DNA from: Microcoleus sp. GA_180221_E-2-1-MAG-45_12
GTDB taxonomy: Bacteria; Cyanobacteriota; Cyanobacteriia; Cyanobacteriales; JAAUUE01
Assembly: GCA_020692245.1 (NCBI GenBank)
Contig: JAIMKT010000026.1
Span: forward strand, 1,473-47,700
Direction: 5' to 3'
DNA length: 46,228 bases
A program made the translations under genes and the position numbers. A model generated the notes under the pieces. That model was not told the origin of the DNA, made no database searches, and saw only the letters and a program-made list of their open reading frames with translations. Below are positions 25,903-46,228 of the stretch, piece by piece. How positions within the stretch are numbered: position 1 is the stretch's first letter; every line of letters begins with the position of its first letter.

Positions 25903-25939
25903 GGATATTTTGCACTCTGAGTCATCGCTCAGGATATCC
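25903..25939. repeat. Inverted repeat downstream of tnpB
   Basis: GGATAT (25903-25908) with ATATCC (25934-25939) encloses CTGAG-TCATCG-CTCAG (25917-25932). It may be part of the element's right end or a transcript terminator. Confidence 0.35.
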
Positions 25940-26095
25940 TTACCCTCTACTTAAATAGAACTTACCTTCTCTTTTCGGTTTCTCAAATTCCGGCAAATTG
26001 CCACAAAGAATACTAGACAAATCTCCTAGATAGACTAAATATCTTATAGTAAGCACAAGTAATCATGAGTAATTAGAGTTTTGGGAGAGGTAAGT

Positions 26096-38900: not shown

Positions 38901-39521
38901 GCCGACGATATAAGAAATTTTGCCGCCACTAAAATTGGTTAACTGGCTCAGGGCAGGGGTGCTGTAGCTGGCATTGTGTCCACCACCTGTGGCCGCCGTG
39001 GCTCTGGCATTGTCTTCCCGGATAGCTACGGAGTCGGTGAGTTCGGTTACATAGTCGATGTTGGCGAGGTTTGGCCATCTTGCCTCTGGGAGCATTTGCT
39101 TACCCCAGAACACTTGATTATTTCCTAAAAATTCTCCTTGTCTCCGGTTCATACTCCAGTTGATGGTGGTGCTGTAGGTACCATTGGGGCCAGCTTGCCA
39201 TGCATTGGGAGCGATTTCATCCACTCCAGAAATGATCGTATCGGCTCCAGAACCTCGAAAGGTGACATTATCCCGACGGGCGATCACGGTTTCTCGATAT
39301 ACGCCGGGAGCGATCGCACAGGTACTCCCACTGGGAGCTGTTTCTGCACATTTCTGGACGGTCTTCCAAGGGGAATTACTAGTTCCGGCATTGCTATCAT
39401 TACCAGTAGCAGCGTCAACGTAGTAGGTTGTTGCAGTTTGTCCCCACACTTTGGGTATATTGACAAACATCAAAAAAGCGATCAGGGCGATCGCTAAGTA
39501 GCGTTTCCAACGGCGCTGCAT
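35979..39521 (-). CDS. Secreted beta-helix protein with DUF2341-type block inside a TIG-like domain
   Basis: An 1180-residue exported protein. A signal peptide (YLAIALIAFLMFVNIPKVWG) is followed by a DUF1565-like start (TYYVDAATGNDSNAGTS) and a right-handed parallel beta-helix to about residue 655, with repeated Asn-rich turns such as NNKILNSYLAHAP and NHLIENNIIQNVGYVG. A Pro-Ser linker (768-786, from a 12-bp tandem repeat) leads to the half TIG sequence ITRVTPTPIEAGKTIRILGD (793-812). A DUF2341-type block (about 819-1132; MRFTVNGTNIPYWIQSG) follows, and the second TIG half (IKVFFDGVPATRVWV and VVNPNGESVTF) closes the protein. A surface polysaccharide-binding or -degrading role is inferred. 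Confidence 0.82.
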   Translation of the reverse strand: MQRRWKRYLAIALIAFLMFVNIPKVWGQTATTYYVDAATGNDSNAGTSNSPWKTVQKCAETAPSGSTCAIAPGVYRETVIARRDNVTFRGSGADTIISGVDEIAPNAWQAGPNGTYSTTINWSMNRRQGEFLGNNQVFWGKQMLPEARWPNLANIDYVTELTDSVAIREDNARATAATGGGHNASYSTPALSQLTNFSGGKISYIVGYRIMAGTCDVNNKAGSTVNFTCNSDPGSGGTRNGTDVILSGGDNPGMLSPKANNYFYLWGKKELLDAPGEWFIDPPQNDSSSTQFTLTIMPPAGIDPRGASAPKVQVKRRNYAFDLWSRSGIRIENLAMFGATVKFESTNNTTIDQVDWRYPHHFQEAPAYFYTGGTVAIPIKGSNNKILNSYLAHAPAAMIQLSGSNHLIENNIIQNVGYVGVGVGIMGSAPGSKIQRNTMVNAGRYWVQMEKGVDVLYNDISQSHRRITDLGTIYGWSQEGDGAQIAYNFVHDAYGELKNPDQQYGAHGIYADDNVTGFNIHHNITWNLTAPGIMLASYNPNSPDTQRYNPGKTSLNLKVFNNTTDELGYLIRDGFLTGLEFRNNLVRKQTQPPNIPPSAGNVIYTNNFFGEPNPGLDNQYIPVAGSPLINTGLVLSPFTNGFSGSAPDIGAKEFGVPPFVAGATARSTDLKQVQTSCNQSGTTLGCSLSNLPPGRKVPADFQVRVGGSSVVTNFVNQSNPQNPQTIATGIVNLATPLSPAQLSQLEVRVGNDGNWIAATPGGSPPIFPSPSPSPSPSPSPSPSPTPIEGSLRITRVTPTPIEAGKTIRILGDGFQQGAANPYTRNILVSNSGSQDLNDYQVLIRINTQALIAEGKMQTDGRDMRFTVNGTNIPYWIQSGINTAVTRIWLRVPNIPAQGTATISMGYGNPVFGAQSNPNNVFLLYDTFGDGQRPGWIADFSSQTPGVTVEETGGAMLIKGTASQNAMFNSFGFYLNQGASEISNLPPDIAIDTEVDINRGTSRGKISAGGFDGTIAAYDTPVGTPPQKRLGFWNGGAWESIGSSRLSTNNVVNKIFTFSLSRQGSSANVAWQEDYNPEVLTQRSGLNNPYWGYFNYAPWTTQPFQVKFKWLGIRRSNREGIEPTVAGTAETTNSQIKVFFDGVPATRVWVDNAKQIRATAPVAATTIRVVNPNGESVTFSL

Positions 39522-40086
39522 AAAAAACCTCTCGATGTATAAGTTTCAACCAGCAATTGACAAATATGGTGGTGTAGTAATTTCTGAATGAATCTTCGGC
39601 CGAGATACCAAACAAGGGATGACTGATCTACTTTCCTCGCTGCCATTGAGAATTATTGCCTAGGATTACTCCTCCAACTCTTTTCTAGGATTGTTTCTCA
39701 GGAATATTCTCAAAATTGTCAAGAGGTATTTGTAAATCTTGTGTAATGCTAATGTAAATTTTTTGTGAATCCATCAGTAATATTGCCGACCTGCAAAAAT
39801 AAGCTAGGGATTAATTTGTAGTTTTACTAGTGAAATTACTGAGTTAACCAAACTAAGTTATAGAGTAGCAAAAAAGTAACAAAATATAAATAAATACTTA
39901 CTTAAGGTAGAGATGTCTTGACTTTTATTACAGCAGCACAGGAAACTAACTGCCACAGAAAATCTCAACATAGGGGCAGATTTAGGGATCAAACTGGATG
40001 AAATTAGTCACAGATAGACTCTAGGAGCTAAAAAAAATCGAGTCTTTCAGGCTATTTAAAGGGATATTTAGGGGATATTTTTGGAA
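39522..40086. other. Intergenic, LCP gene to beta-helix gene
   Basis: A non-coding gap of 565 bases, AT-rich, that should hold the promoter of the beta-helix gene at its left side. TGTAAATCTTGTG (39731-39743) and TGTAAATTTTTTGTG (39753-39767) are loosely related direct repeats. I see no frame, tRNA or mobile-element end. Confidence 0.4.
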
Positions 40087-41606
40087 CTATGGGGATGTTT
40101 TGAGGGGAGTTTCTGGCTGTCTTTCTAACCAATCAAGACCCAAACGAATGGTAAAGTCGGAATCCATATCTCCAGTGGAAGAAGCTTCGATCGCCCCCAA
40201 GCCCCAAGATTGCTGTAGCTTAGTTGCAGTTTGTAAATCTCCCTTTTGAGCAATGATTTGGGTTTGGGGCAGCTCTTCTGTCCAGTTATTGATGATATAG
40301 GCGTTGTTAAAACCTGTAGTTGCTAAATAGTCAGCAAATTCTTCGGCGGCTCTGGGGCGACCAGTGGCATTTTGGATGGCAATCCGCAGGGTCTGGGGAC
40401 GTTGGGTTGTGTTTAAGTCGTAGGGATTATTAGTCGTGTTGCTAGGAGGAGTGAGTTGGAAGTACTGCTCCATGATTCGATCGCGCGCTGGCAAATCAAG
40501 TAACCAGTAGCTGGCTTGGAACTCTTGGGGTTGACTAAAACGCCCCGGCAGCAGTACCATTCGCAGGGTTTCTGGCTGGACATCAAGCATAAAACTCCCC
40601 AGTGCCATAATCTCCTCTAGGCTGAGGTTCGTATCTATATACTGCTGCATTACTCCCAAAATTTGAGGCAGACGAGGCAATACTGAAGGGTTGAGCAATC
40701 TTTGGCGGATAGCTTTGAGGAGAGTTTGCTGCCTCTGGACTCGACCTATATCCCCATTACCATCACTCCGAAATCTGGCAAAATGTTCTACCTGCGCCCC
40801 GTTCAAGGTCTGCCAGCCCGGCTTGATATCAATAAATAAGTTTTGGGTCACATCTTGGTATTGCATGGCGTAGGGAACATAGATTTCAACTCCCCCCAAC
40901 AGGTCTACTAGTTCCCGGACAGCATTATTAGTCACCCGGACGTAGCGATCGACCGCCACATTATTAAGCGTCCCACTCACAACTCTTGCCGTTAGGGCTG
41001 CCCCCCTTCTACGTTTGCCTCATTAATTTTGCTGACCCCGGCTCCCGGAATTTCTACCTGCGTATCCCTCGGAATTGATAGCACATTAGCTGTCTTTGTC
41101 TGGGGATCAAGACCAACGAGGAGCATAGTATCTGTTCGTCCCGCAAAAATCTCTGGTGAATTGGCTGGAGCATTGGGCATCCAATCTACTCCCATCAACA
41201 AAATATTGACGGGTCTGGCTAGACTGTAGCGAAATCCTTGCCGCCAGAGTTCTTCCTTGAGATTGTCAGGAGATTCTGACTTAATTAAAGGACTGATAGG
41301 AGTCAACAGGGCTACAGTAGCTCCGAGAGCCGCAGAAATTGTTGCTGTTGCCAAAAACGCTCCGCCCCAAAAAATCCATTTCATTACTTGCCGACTCCGG
41401 GAAGGAGCCTGAGAAACTTTGCGGCTAGATTGGCTAGATTTACCAGAAGTGTTGGTTCCTCTAGGGGGATCAAAGTCTGGGGAATGACCGTTGGCTTGAC
41501 TTTCTGGCTCTAATCGGGAATCTGGACTAGAACTATCAACGGAATTAGGGGACAGACCATCGGGGGACTGCCTTGGAAAATGTTCAACGATTTTTTTCAC
41601 CCTCAC
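40087..41606 (-). pseudogene. LytR-CpsA-Psr (LCP) protein, interrupted by one-base shift
   Basis: LCP proteins attach glycopolymers to the cell wall from undecaprenyl carriers. The gene is read in two frames: 41606-40992 gives a Ser/Pro-rich cytosolic start, a membrane segment (about residues 75-102) and the first LCP half (NILLMGVDWMP, GRTDTMLLVGLDP, NVLSIPRDTQVEIPG); 40980-40087 gives the second half (VDRYVRVTNNAVRELVDLLG, HFARFRSDGNGDIGRVQRQQ) and a C-terminal LytR_C domain (TLRIAIQNATGRPRAAEEFA). A G6 run (C6 at 41001-41006) is where the frames separate; seven G's would give EGGAALTARVVSG and a 506-residue protein. Sequencing error, recent mutation, phase variation or -1 slippage are all possible. 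Confidence 0.85.
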
Positions 41607-41694
41607 CTCAACGAAGTAACTCCTATAAATCGGATTATAACCTTAGAAACTGCTTACCTAGGACTCTGATTTCCGGGGATTTTTAATTTGGTTA

Positions 41695-41716
41695 TTTTTA
41701 AGTAATTTTTAAGTAA
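41695..41716 (+). repeat. Perfect 11-bp tandem repeat upstream of the DUF2605 gene
   Basis: TTTTTAAGTAA occurs twice head to tail (41695-41705 and 41706-41716), with a one-turn period, in the divergent gap between the LCP and DUF2605 genes. The spacing suits a dimeric activator, and the TTAAG core is loosely Pho-box-like. Confidence 0.45.
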
Positions 41717-41784
41717 ACTAAGCTAATGTTAAATTATATTAAAACCATTAAGATAAAGATCAAATAATAACCTGTAATAAAATC

Positions 41785-42147
41785 ATGAACCCTTTTCAGC
41801 CATCCCAGCCTTCGGAGCAGGATTTACTCAAAGCCTTACTACCTCCCTTGTTAGAAGATTTTCAATATTGGTTTACTCGATCGCTCAAATTATTGGAAAA
41901 TGAGAATCTAACTTTTTTGAGTGCTGCCCAGCAAGCAGATCTCCTAAATCGGGTCAAGTTTGCTCATCAAGAGGTGATCACAGCCCAGATGATGTTTACT
42001 GCCACCAATGGGGAAGTCGGGGTAGCCACATCTACTCTAATTCCTTGGCATCGTCTGTTGGGGGAATGTTGGCAGATTTCTCAGAAATGGCGGCAAGTCC
42101 AGTCGATCGTGCCTGAGAGTCAACCCTATCGCCAAAGAAATTGTTAA
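41785..42147 (+). CDS. DUF2605 family protein
   Basis: A 120-residue soluble, mostly helical protein of a family known only from cyanobacteria, of unknown function. Typical parts are LLKALLPPLLEDFQYWFTRS and QADLLNRVKFAHQEVITAQM, then LIPWHRLLGECWQISQKW. No catalytic motif is visible. It precedes the DUF2973 gene on the same strand, the usual neighbour of this family, but a 288-base gap with its own promoter-like signals separates them. Confidence 0.82.
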   Translation: MNPFQPSQPSEQDLLKALLPPLLEDFQYWFTRSLKLLENENLTFLSAAQQADLLNRVKFAHQEVITAQMMFTATNGEVGVATSTLIPWHRLLGECWQISQKWRQVQSIVPESQPYRQRNC

Positions 42148-42343
42148 CTGAAATTGTTCACTAGAGGTAGCCGTGGCGCAAATACTGCTCCAAATACTAT
42201 TTCTAAATGCTATGTACTGTTAAGCAAGCTCAAGCTAGGTAAACTCAATTAAATTCTGGGGAAGCGATCGCACTGTTATGACTGACCCCAACAACTAGCC
42301 TTAGTCCTTTTACATTCCAGTATTTTTAATATTGTCAAGTTTC

Positions 42344-42373
42344 CTTAAACTCATATTAAACTTCCGTTAAATT
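42344..42373 (+). promoter_or_regulatory. Pho-box-like repeat array upstream of the DUF2973 gene
   Basis: CTTAAACT-CAT-ATTAAACT-TCC-GTTAAATT: three 8-bp units with 3-bp spacers, exactly 11-bp period, as in the cyanobacterial SphR/PhoB box (consensus near YTTAACCW). A weaker fourth unit, ATTACACC, continues the phase at 42377-42384. TATAAC at 42399-42404 could be the -10 box, with the array in the -35 position. Phosphate control is therefore a candidate; AT-rich chance similarity cannot be excluded. Confidence 0.45.
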
Positions 42374-42435
42374 TTTATTACACCCCTCAAAATTCCCCTA
42401 TAACCATAAAATCAACTGCCCCGGAGGAACCCCCT

Positions 42436-42750
42436 ATGCTGCACCTAATCTATCTCGTAGTCTTTACAATCTTGGCTCTCCTTGCCATCAGCAATCTCCT
42501 CCGGAGCCTTGTCACCCTTAGTGTCGACTCTCACCGCCAGCCATCCGCCTCCAATAATTATCCCTACCCCCCAAATTCCTTCCGGGCAAACCAAAGCCCC
42601 CATCCAGAACTCCTCGACACCTACGGCAACCCCATTAACGAACCCCTGCTGGTGATGCGCTCCCTGAGCGTGGAAGATGCCCGACAACAACTAGATGATC
42701 TTTATCATAAATCCCCCAGTAATAGCTCTGATACTTCGGAAGAAATCTAG
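42436..42750 (+). CDS. DUF2973 family membrane-anchored protein
   Basis: A 104-residue protein of a cyanobacteria-restricted family of unknown function. One N-terminal membrane helix (LIYLVVFTILALLAISNLL) is followed by a Pro/Asn-rich spacer and the conserved tail HPELLDTYGNPINEPLLVMR with SVEDARQQLDDLYHKS. GGAGG lies 9 bases before the ATG. The gene has its own promoter-like region with the Pho-box-like array, downstream of DUF2605. Confidence 0.85.
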   Translation: MLHLIYLVVFTILALLAISNLLRSLVTLSVDSHRQPSASNNYPYPPNSFRANQSPHPELLDTYGNPINEPLLVMRSLSVEDARQQLDDLYHKSPSNSSDTSEEI

Positions 42751-42922
42751 TAGATGAGTTAGAGATGGACTAGATGAAGATTAGATTCGGATTAGTAATC
42801 TAAATTCGTTAGATGAATTTGTCTAAAATCCTGAAGGCTTTTGGCTAGCGATTATGTCCAAACTGCCGTAAGTCCTGATAGAGTAGATGGAGTGAAGAAA
42901 TAATGGTTTTTACCCGCAGCCT

Positions 42923-43246
42923 ATGAGTACTCTTGTGAAAGTCGTTCAGCCTACGGGCATTCTAGACGGAACCAAGGCTGGTCAGTTTCGCCAAGAAATT
43001 AGTCAGCTAGTAGAAGATAAAGCCGAAGTCGTACTAATCGATTTCAGAGATGTCACATTTATGGATAGTTCCGGTTTGGGAGCCTTAGTGTTGGCACTAA
43101 AGACAGTGCGAGCCTCTGGGGGTAAGATGTTTATCTGTTCTGTGAATGAGCAAATTAGAATGTTATTCGAGTTGACAAGCATGGATCGGGTGTTTCAAAT
43201 CTTTGCCAGTCGGGATGAATTTGATGCTCATTTGGCTTCTTTGTAG
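42923..43246 (+). CDS. STAS-domain anti-sigma factor antagonist
   Basis: A 107-residue single-domain STAS protein of the SpoIIAA/RsbV type, which in partner-switching systems binds a kinase/anti-sigma factor when unphosphorylated. The phosphorylation site is expected in FMDSSGLGALV (Ser49/Ser50). The N-terminal VVQPTGILDGTKAGQFRQ and C-terminal MDRVFQIFASRDEFDAHL are typical. No RsbW-type kinase or PP2C phosphatase is adjacent, so its partners are elsewhere. An intrinsic terminator follows. Confidence 0.92.
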   Translation: MSTLVKVVQPTGILDGTKAGQFRQEISQLVEDKAEVVLIDFRDVTFMDSSGLGALVLALKTVRASGGKMFICSVNEQIRMLFELTSMDRVFQIFASRDEFDAHLASL

Positions 43247-43300
43247 AAATGCCATCAAAAATATCATCCTTCACCATTTTTTAGATTTAGCGAAGGGAGA

Positions 43301-43330
43301 GTGGACAGGAATTATCCACCCCCCTTTTTT
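43301..43330 (+). terminator. Intrinsic terminator after the STAS gene
   Basis: GTGGA (43301-43305) pairs with TCCAC (43315-43319), followed by CCCCC and a T6 run continuing TATTTTT. It separates the STAS gene from the convergent acnB. Confidence 0.65.
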
Positions 43331-43347
43331 ATTTTTACTTACTATTC

Positions 43348-45954
43348 TTACTTGCTAGAAGTAGCGAGGGTTTTGAACTCCTCAATACTGGGTTCGTCGC
43401 CCTTGGCAATTACCCGTCCTTCATCTTCAAAGCCATCAATCTCATTAAAATTGAGATAACGATAGAGTTCCGCAGCGAGGGGATTAATTTTATCTTGGAC
43501 TACTTTTAGGTATTCCTCACGGGTCGGCATTTTTCCCAACAAGGCACAGACGGCAGCAAGTTCGGCAGAACCGAGATAAACTTGAGCACCTTTGCCCATA
43601 CGGTTGTTGAAATTGCGAGTAGAGGTAGAAAACACTGTGGTATTATCTTCAACCCGGGCTTGATTTCCCATACACAGAGAACATCCCGGCATTTCTAGCC
43701 GAGCGCCTGTCTTTTCAAAAATTTCGTAATACCCTTCAGCTTTCAGCATCGACTCATCCATGCGGGTAGGGGGAGCGACCCAGAGCCGAGCTTTGGCGAC
43801 TCCTTCCCCTTCGATCACCTTTGCTGCTGCCCGGTAGTGACCAATATTTGTCATGCAGGAGCCGATAAAGACTTCATGGATGCGATCGCCGACACATTCA
43901 GAAAGGGTTTTGATATTGTCAGGATCGTTGGGAGCCGCCACTAAGGGTTCGGTGATCTCATTGAGGTCAATTTCAATAATCTCGGCATACTCCGCATCAG
44001 CATCAGCTTCCATCAACACAGGGTTGGCAAGCCATTCCTCCATTTTGACAATTCGTCTAGTCATGGTGCGGGCATCGGTGTAACCACGGGCGATCATGTT
44101 TTTCATTAGGGAGATATTCGATCGCAAATACTCCGCCACAGTTTCGGGGCTAAGTTTGATGGTGCAACCAGAACAGGATCTTTCTGCCGTCGCATCAGTA
44201 AGTTCAAAGGCTTGCTCTAATTTCAGGTCGGGCAGTCCTTCGATTTCCATGATCTTCCCAGAGAAGATATTTTTCTTATTTTGCTTCTCAATGGTTAATA
44301 AGCCCTTTTGGATTGCTACGTAGGGAATGGCGTTCACAACATCCCGGAGGGTAATCCCCGGTTGCATTTCTCCCTTAAACCGAACTAGGATCGATTCTGG
44401 CATATCCAAGGGCATTACCCCCAATGCTGCCGCAAAGGCTACCAGACCAGAACCCGCCGGGAAGGAAATCCCCAGAGGGAACCGGGTGTGGGAATCCCCG
44501 CCAGTCCCCACGGTATCGGGTAGCAACATTCGGTTTAGCCAAGAATGGATAATCCCATCCGCCGGACGCAACGCTACGCCCCCACGGGTAGCAAAGAAAT
44601 CTGGTAAATCCTTGTGAGTTTGGATATCGGTAGGTTTGGGGTAGGCAGCAGTGTGGCAGAAACTTTGCATGACTAGATCCGCAGAGAAGCCCAGACAGGC
44701 TAGTTCCTTCAGCTCATCACGGGTCATGGGGCCAGTGGTATCTTGGGAACCCACGGTAGTCATGATGGGTTCGCAGGAAGTACCGGGACGGACACCGGGT
44801 AATCCACAGGCTTTGCCGACCATTTTCTGGGCGAGGGTGTAGCCTTTGCCAGTATCTACAGGTAACGTTGGCCTAGTAAACAAAGTGCTAGGAGATAAAC
44901 CCAAGGCTTGACGAGTTTTATCTGTGAGGCTCCGCCCGATTAAGAGGGGAATTCTGCCTCCAGCCCGGACTTCATCAAGAATCGTATCGGGTTTCAAGGT
45001 GAAGGTGGAAAGCACAGCGCCGCTTTCATTGGTAATCTCGCCCTTGTAGGGATGGATCGTAATTACCATACCAGTTTCTAGCCCGGTGACATCACACTCG
45101 ATCGGCAAGGCTCCCGAATCTTCGGCGGTGTTGAAAAAGATGGGGGCGATCGCACTACCGAGAATATAGCCGCCCGATCGCTTATTAGGTACGTAGGGAA
45201 TATCGTTACCAATGTGCCACAGGACAGAGTTAATGGCAGATTTCCGAGAGGAACCAGTTCCCACCACATCCCCCACATAGGCTACGGGATGCCCTTTTTG
45301 CTTCAGTTCAGCAATAGTCTGGATACTGCCGGGTTGCTTGCTCTCCAGCATTACGAGGGCATGGAGGGGAATATCGGGGCGGGTGGTGGCGTGGGGTGCG
45401 GGGGAAAGGTCATCGGTGTTGGTTTCGCCGGGAACCTTAAATACAGTGACGGTAATGGCTTCCGGTAGTTTGGGGCGACTAACGAACCATTCAGCATTTG
45501 CCCAAGAATCCACCACCTGTTTGGCATAGGGGTTCTTTTCGGAGAGGGTCAAAATATCATGGAAGGCATCAAATACTAACATGGTCTTGCTCAGGGCAGC
45601 GGCTGCGGTAGAGGCGATGGCTGGATCCCGGACTTGCAAGAGGCTAATTAAAGATTGGACATTATACCCGCCCAGCATGGTTCCCAAAAGATGTACAGCA
45701 GATTCAGCAGTAATCAACGGGCAGTTAGTTTCTCCTTTGGCAACGGCAGTAAGAAATCCGGCTTTCACGTAGGCTGCCTGATCCACTCCGGGGGGAACTC
45801 GATCGCGTAACATCTCAATTAAAGTTTCGGCTTCAGCAGCGGGCGGATTTTTGAGGAGTTCGCACAGCTCGGCTACCTGCTCTGCATTCAAAGGAAGGGG
45901 AGGAATCCCCAAGGCTGCCCGTTCTTGGACATGGTGGCGATAGGTTTCTAGCAT
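43348..45954 (-). CDS. acnB: Aconitate hydratase B
   Basis: Converts citrate to isocitrate with a [4Fe-4S] cluster; in cyanobacteria this feeds 2-oxoglutarate for nitrogen assimilation. The 868-residue form begins [20 protein letters not shown], the standard AcnB start with the HEAT-like domain first. Cluster residues lie in [14 protein letters not shown] and [17 protein letters not shown]; swivel-domain sequence [18 protein letters not shown] is near residue 230. The frame is open to an ATG at 46038, which has AAGGAG 12 bases upstream and would add 28 residues; I prefer 45954 from family length, but it lacks a clear ribosome site. Confidence 0.96.
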
Positions 45955-46115
45955 AATTATTTGGTTTTTCTTCTTCTCAAGATCAGGATGATTACAAACT
46001 ACCTGAATTATCTGATCTTTATTACTCTTTACCACCATTTTGAGCGATCGCTCCTTGACTTTGCCGAAACGGGCTGAGGATTAGCGATCGAATCATTACC
46101 GGAATTATTTGCTCT

Positions 46116-46228
46116 CTAGGGCAATTGGTTAGTCTGGGCGATCGTCACTTCTACTTCTTCCACAGCTAAATCTACAATTTGGGCAATCTCTACCGCACTC
46201 ACTCCACGAGCAGCCAAGCGCTGGATTA
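46116..46228 (-). CDS. C-terminal end of a protein cut by the window edge
   Basis: A frame open to the right edge and ending at TAG (46116-46118). The visible 36 residues, IQRLAARGVSAVEIAQIVDL then AVEEVEVTIAQTNQLP, resemble the tails of cyanobacterial Rpn/PD-(D/E)XK transposase-like nucleases, where a VSxEEIAxxxxLSxEEV pattern is common. Too little is present for a firm call. Confidence 0.4.
   Translation of the reverse strand, partial: IQRLAARGVSAVEIAQIVDLAVEEVEVTIAQTNQLP

Follow-up and report, generated by a model that had tools for sequence, protein, structure and literature searches.

A tandem TTAA array upstream of a DUF2973 gene is a candidate SphR-type site found in one cyanobacterial genus

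A candidate SphR site

The window analysed here, 46,228 nucleotides of contig JAIMKT010000026.1 from Microcoleus sp. GA_180221_E-2-1-MAG-45_12, contains a tandem array of TTAA-centred octamers upstream of a gene encoding a DUF2973 protein. The reading we prefer, at a probability of about 45%, is that SphR, the PhoB-type regulator of the phosphate-starvation response, binds this array, and that only this genus gained or retained the site. The three TTAA boxes, direct repeats spaced one to each 11-bp turn, would be occupied by at least two SphR molecules. RNA polymerase would thereby be recruited to a promoter whose -10 element is fair and whose -35 element is poor, such that low phosphate would raise DUF2973 transcription. 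From this arrangement we infer the identity of the bound factor as SphR, the activation of transcription and the role of phosphate as the signal. With less than even confidence, we further suggest that the genus has wired a near-universal, uncharacterised small membrane protein into its phosphate-starvation response by means of a newly evolved candidate SphR site of three boxes, whose score against the Pho matrix exceeds that of the genome's own pstS site.

The array is a candidate new SphR-type site. It does not show what DUF2973 does and, since it was found in one genus only, it tells little about the function of this widespread protein. If the SphR reading is true, low phosphate is one condition in which to seek a DUF2973 phenotype, and the array would hint at a route by which Pho sites may evolve in genomes with many short, AT-rich tandem repeats. 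If it is false, the array is ordinary promoter DNA.

The DUF2973 gene and its surroundings

The DUF2973 gene (42436-42750, + strand; PF11189, E 2.8e-26) encodes a protein of 104 amino acids with a hydrophobic N-terminus and a tail, HPELLD...EPLLVMRS, that is conserved in an alignment of 13 proteins. DUF2973 was found in 58 of 60 relatives and, across a sample of the class, in 191 of 194 genomes. None of the papers in the collection that we searched names DUF2973, DUF2605 or PF11189. The conserved 5' neighbour is a DUF2605 gene (41785-42147, + strand; PF10792), which precedes DUF2973 in the same orientation at 64 of 74 loci, the 74 including two genomes twice. On the 3' side lie a STAS (anti-sigma antagonist) gene and then a convergent acnB.

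Several other features of this region were observed. A short leader frame (ATG..TGA, encoding MVFTRSL) at 42903-42926 ends in a stop codon that overlaps the STAS start codon, so translational coupling is possible. Upstream of the DUF2605 gene, at 41694-41716, is a perfect 11-base tandem repeat, ATTTTTAAGTA, of two units. A LytR-CpsA-Psr gene (40087-41606, - strand) is broken into two frames near 40980-40992 by a frameshift, either in the genome or in the assembly. An Rfam search of 39500-46228 at E values up to 1 returned one match, gut-2 (41278-41310), which at E 0.15 is sub-threshold and lies a kilobase away from the array.

Architecture of the array and promoter

Direct reading of the sequence gives the array at 42344-42384 (+ strand) as CTTAAACT-cat-ATTAAACT-tcc-GTTAAATT-ttt-ATTACACC. 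The sequence-only reading had described three clear and one weaker TTAA-centred octamers with exact 3-base spacers, and sequence, coordinates and spacing are all confirmed. Compared with the consensus YTTAAYYW, as given in an excerpt of PMC13226834, box 1 (42344-42351) matches at seven of eight positions, boxes 2 (42355-42362) and 3 (42366-42373) at six each, and the weak box 4 (42377-42384), which scores 0.15 bits against the Pho matrix described below, at four. Position 6 is A, not the consensus Y, in every box. The stretch directly 5' of the array (42318-42343) includes a degenerate in-phase unit, TGTCAAGT, at 42333-42340, with a matrix score of -4.8 bits.

The probable -10 element is TATAAC at 42399-42404, with TAAAAT at 42407-42412 as an alternative read from the sequence, and a GGAGG ribosome site lies between TATAAC and the DUF2973 ATG at 42436. 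A generic sigma-70 scan reported no promoter at the TATAAC region. The array had been placed in the -35 position of the TATAAC promoter. This holds for weak box 4, the only box to overlap that position (which reads TATTAC) and one that ends 14 bases from TATAAC, but not for boxes 1-3, which stop 25 bases short of it.

Similarity to published Pho boxes

A Pho matrix was built from 27 published cyanobacterial Pho arrays, taken from Table 1 of PMC1906773. Against it the array reaches 21.5 bits on the + strand and no more than 12.2 bits on the - strand, and therefore points at DUF2973. With an intergenic background the score is 19.6 bits, which equals the sixth best among the 27 training arrays, a level typical of published sites, and is the top period-11 match in the 841 kb scanned on both strands. 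That sample, about a fifth of the genome, was picked by hand and takes in contigs with known TTAA triples (C63, C95 and C113), so it is slightly enriched for them.

Excerpts of the literature describe Pho sites as two to four motifs with spacers of typically 3 nt, overlapping the -35 element or sitting further upstream (PMC13226834), and report for Synechocystis that PhoB bound less well or not at all once any one of three TTAA repeats had been altered (PMC11126600). The array holds all three TTAA repeats of the kind tested in the latter excerpt, and has the TTAA core in each of them. It likewise has the at least two to three tandem octamers with 3-base linkers that a Pho box requires.

Phosphate regulator genes and the pstS promoter

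Contig C89 of the same genome (locus L148) encodes, in a row, a PhoB-type regulator, a PhoR/PnpS-like kinase and PhoU. The regulator is the genome's best match to the PhoB model, at 235.9 against an NCBIfam cut-off of 296.2, and the kinase is also below the cut-offs of its models, while PhoU exceeds its own. This row points to the presence of SphS-SphR in the genome, albeit with sub-equivalog scores for regulator and kinase.

The genome's own pstS was identified by TIGR00975 (383 bits). Its promoter carries TTTAGGGG-ttt-GTTAAACT-tct-CTTTACTT, a 30-base match beginning at -87, the last two boxes of which (GTTAAACT-tct-CTTTACTT) are kept at the same place in the congener described below. The DUF2973 array outscores this pstS site (19.6 vs 12.2 bits); the pstS sites of both congeners barely exceed 12 bits. 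As a positive control, the same scan found arrays of at least 12 bits at 12 of 33 pstS-like genes (30 loci out of 48 listed rows, and three from the genome itself), in 9 of 11 genomes. At pstS the array lies 8 bases from the -10 element, and at DUF2973 the distance is 25 (boxes 1-3) or 14 (weak box 4). Among 11 of the relatives' pst arrays that reach 12 bits, three lack any TAN3T within 45 bases, and the nearest one in the remaining arrays is 5-30 bases away. Because the distance varies so widely, it is no strong objection.

Another array resembling a Pho box, CTTACCCT-cta-CTTAAATA-gaa-CTTACCTT, stands at 25939-25968 of the window (17.4 bits), 127 bases before a gene for a periplasmic solute-binding protein (YdcS/PotD-like) that has weak matches to 2-aminoethylphosphonate binders, all sub-cut-off. 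This stretch did not align with the congener, the alignment skipping it. Elsewhere in the data, at locus L073, translations indicate an ArsR-like regulator, a phosphate-binding protein, a GAPDH-like gene and then an apparent transporter, a cluster that we take to be reminiscent of those for arsenate resistance.

Conservation within the genus

The sole congener found (G001) was compared through a contig judged to be that of Coleofasciculaceae cyanobacterium SM2_1_6 (JAAUUE010000005.1). Its array scores 16.5 bits. Boxes 1-3 are identical at 23 of 24 positions, box 1 at seven of eight and boxes 2 and 3 throughout; the weak box 4 reads ATTCCACT. Spacers 1, 2 and 3 are identical at 1/3, 3/3 and 3/3 positions, the stretch directly 5' of the array at 23 of 26, and TATAAC at all six. 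Upstream of 42318 the intergenic DNA is identical at 90 of 170 positions, with 99 bases inserted. Boxes kept amid diverged upstream DNA are the pattern that would be expected of a working site, as judged from this alignment. The neighbouring promoters are as conserved, at 78 of 81 bases before the DUF2605 gene (41704-41784, which takes in most of the repeat ATTTTTAAGTA) and 68 of 70 before the STAS gene (within 42853-42926), so two genomes cannot tell a site from ordinary promoter constraint.

Of ten TTAA-triple arrays in the genome, two match an orthologous array in the congener: that of DUF2973 and one between CoA-ligase-like and pyruvate formate-lyase-like genes. A third conserved array precedes purC. 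These counts are lower bounds, since the congener's genome is 87% complete and 15 of its 22 triple sites were compared as loci. The array between the CoA-ligase-like and pyruvate formate-lyase-like genes is a long TTAA repeat of 11-bp period (L059; seven units in the congener, L242-L246), and one of the two genomes has a complete 11-base unit more there than the other. Upstream of purC (SAICAR synthetase; L099, 1500-1518) are the consensus-perfect Pho boxes CTTAACCT-ctt-CTTAACCT, and the corresponding position in the congener (L239) reads CTTAACCT-ctt-CTTAATCT.

DUF2973 upstream regions beyond the genus

From the 191 DUF2973 genomes, those with loci and a further 60 chosen by hand for spread were scored, giving 148 upstream regions. 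Excluded were L033 and L054 (same genomes as L041 and L028), L039 (same contig as L038) and six of 22 new loci in which no start codon was found (L255, L256, L261, L262, L265 and L266). Two doubtful rows were kept, L327 (whose printed frame is not DUF2973) and L331; the starts of L302, L314 and L328 are set one or two codons late, and some species are perhaps present twice because the genomes came from both named and unnamed collections.

Three TTAA at period 11 occur in the two congeners only, and in none of the 146 regions from outside the genus. One outside region (L291) scores 16.5 bits, equal to the congener, against a median of 0.3 for the 148. Alignment of these regions, the check proposed with the sequence-only reading, thus finds the period kept in one congener and absent from the 146 others; conservation upstream of orthologues in relatives, which would support a Pho box, extends to that congener only. 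Control from the DUF2605 gene at the level of an operon is likewise rejected, none of 64 DUF2605 upstream regions reaching 12 bits (the best of the 64 scored 11.9).

The wider claim that DUF2973 as such belongs to the phosphate response therefore fails outside the genus, and family-wide Pho control is rejected on the 0 of 146. With DUF2973 near-universal in cyanobacteria, a family-wide phosphate role is unsupported: there is no three-TTAA array in the regions scored beyond the genus and no strong array before the 64 DUF2605 genes, so nothing suggests that the whole family is a Pho target. The narrower claim, that the array itself is a Pho box, has on its side the box sequences, their direction and spacing, the regulator-kinase-PhoU row, the genome's own pstS and the congener.

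Alternative explanations

The chief alternative is that the array is AT-rich promoter-proximal DNA whose 11-bp phasing stems from an old tandem duplication or from helical phasing (like that of UP elements or curvature), with no dedicated regulator. We consider this a substantial possibility, clearly short of even odds. Intergenic TTAA and AATT pairs at spacings of 10-14 bases are both frequent (24-34 and 37-57 per spacing), and period-11 AATT triples (7) are as common as TTAA triples (5). The genome has 11 places with TTAA-N7-TTAA-N7-TTAA; counted with at most one mismatch, such triples number 89 per strand against 260 for the reversed AATT control, and the exact triples of the congener are likewise fewer than their control (22 vs 50). 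Nor is the two-box motif enriched genome-wide over its reversed control (19 vs 29 in the genome, 22 vs 31 in the congener). At 15 other periods the same 841 kb gave 13 equally good matches (between 0 and 4 at each period, with one place scoring at two of them), so the array is not exceptional at genome scale. Under an order-4 Markov model of intergenic DNA, a score this high arises in 1 of 20,000 simulated 300-base upstream regions. The array is thus unusual for one promoter, but not for a genome. Both congeners have many 11-bp TTAA arrays, several of those in G001 being exact tandem repeats, and the single-unit difference and the equal conservation of adjoining promoters noted above also suit this explanation. 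What it does not account for so readily is that the TTAA flanks fit the Pho matrix in one direction, that the spacers vary from unit to unit, that Tandem Repeats Finder (score 30) does not list the array, and that boxes 1-3 are kept where the upstream half of the region has diverged.

It is unlikely, in our estimate, that the array instead serves a different response regulator of the OmpR/PhoB type whose sites share the 8+3 architecture. The genome encodes about ten full-length OmpR-type regulators (PhoB model), and the conserved TTAA arrays before purC and the pyruvate formate-lyase-like gene have no obvious tie to phosphate. Opposed to this are the box NTTAAACT, common to the DUF2973 array and the genome's own pstS promoter, and the poor fit to the HLR1 motif of RpaB, which needs four mismatches at best within 42148-42435 and is rejected. 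For NtcA (GTAN8TAC), one palindromic site with one mismatch lies at 42239-42252, not within the array. Besides the DUF2973 array and the pstS promoter, a narrow pattern, TTAAACTNNNNTTWAMYT, matched only one further place per congener, and these two places are not orthologous; the pattern is given little weight because it was designed after both promoters had been seen.

Comparison with known regulatory elements

The HLR1 element of RpaB resembles the array in consisting of tandem octamers recognised by an OmpR-type regulator. Its consensus in an excerpt of PMC11633204, KTTACAWW-NN-KTTACAWW, has a 2-base gap, a period of 10 and a TTACA core, unlike the array. The closer counterpart of our candidate SphR site is the cyanobacterial Pho box, the SphR/PhoB site of the sphX, pstS and phoA promoters in Synechocystis PCC 6803. 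The array differs from it in having A for Y at position 6 of each box and A or G at the start of boxes 2 and 3, in preceding a gene that is no known phosphate gene, and in having been seen in one genus only. It shares with the Pho box the TTAA-core octamers, the 3-base linkers and the arrangement of three in tandem oriented toward the gene, and it closely resembles the MIT9312 pstS site, TTTAAAGAgaaCTTAAACTtccCTTAAATT (PMC1906773).
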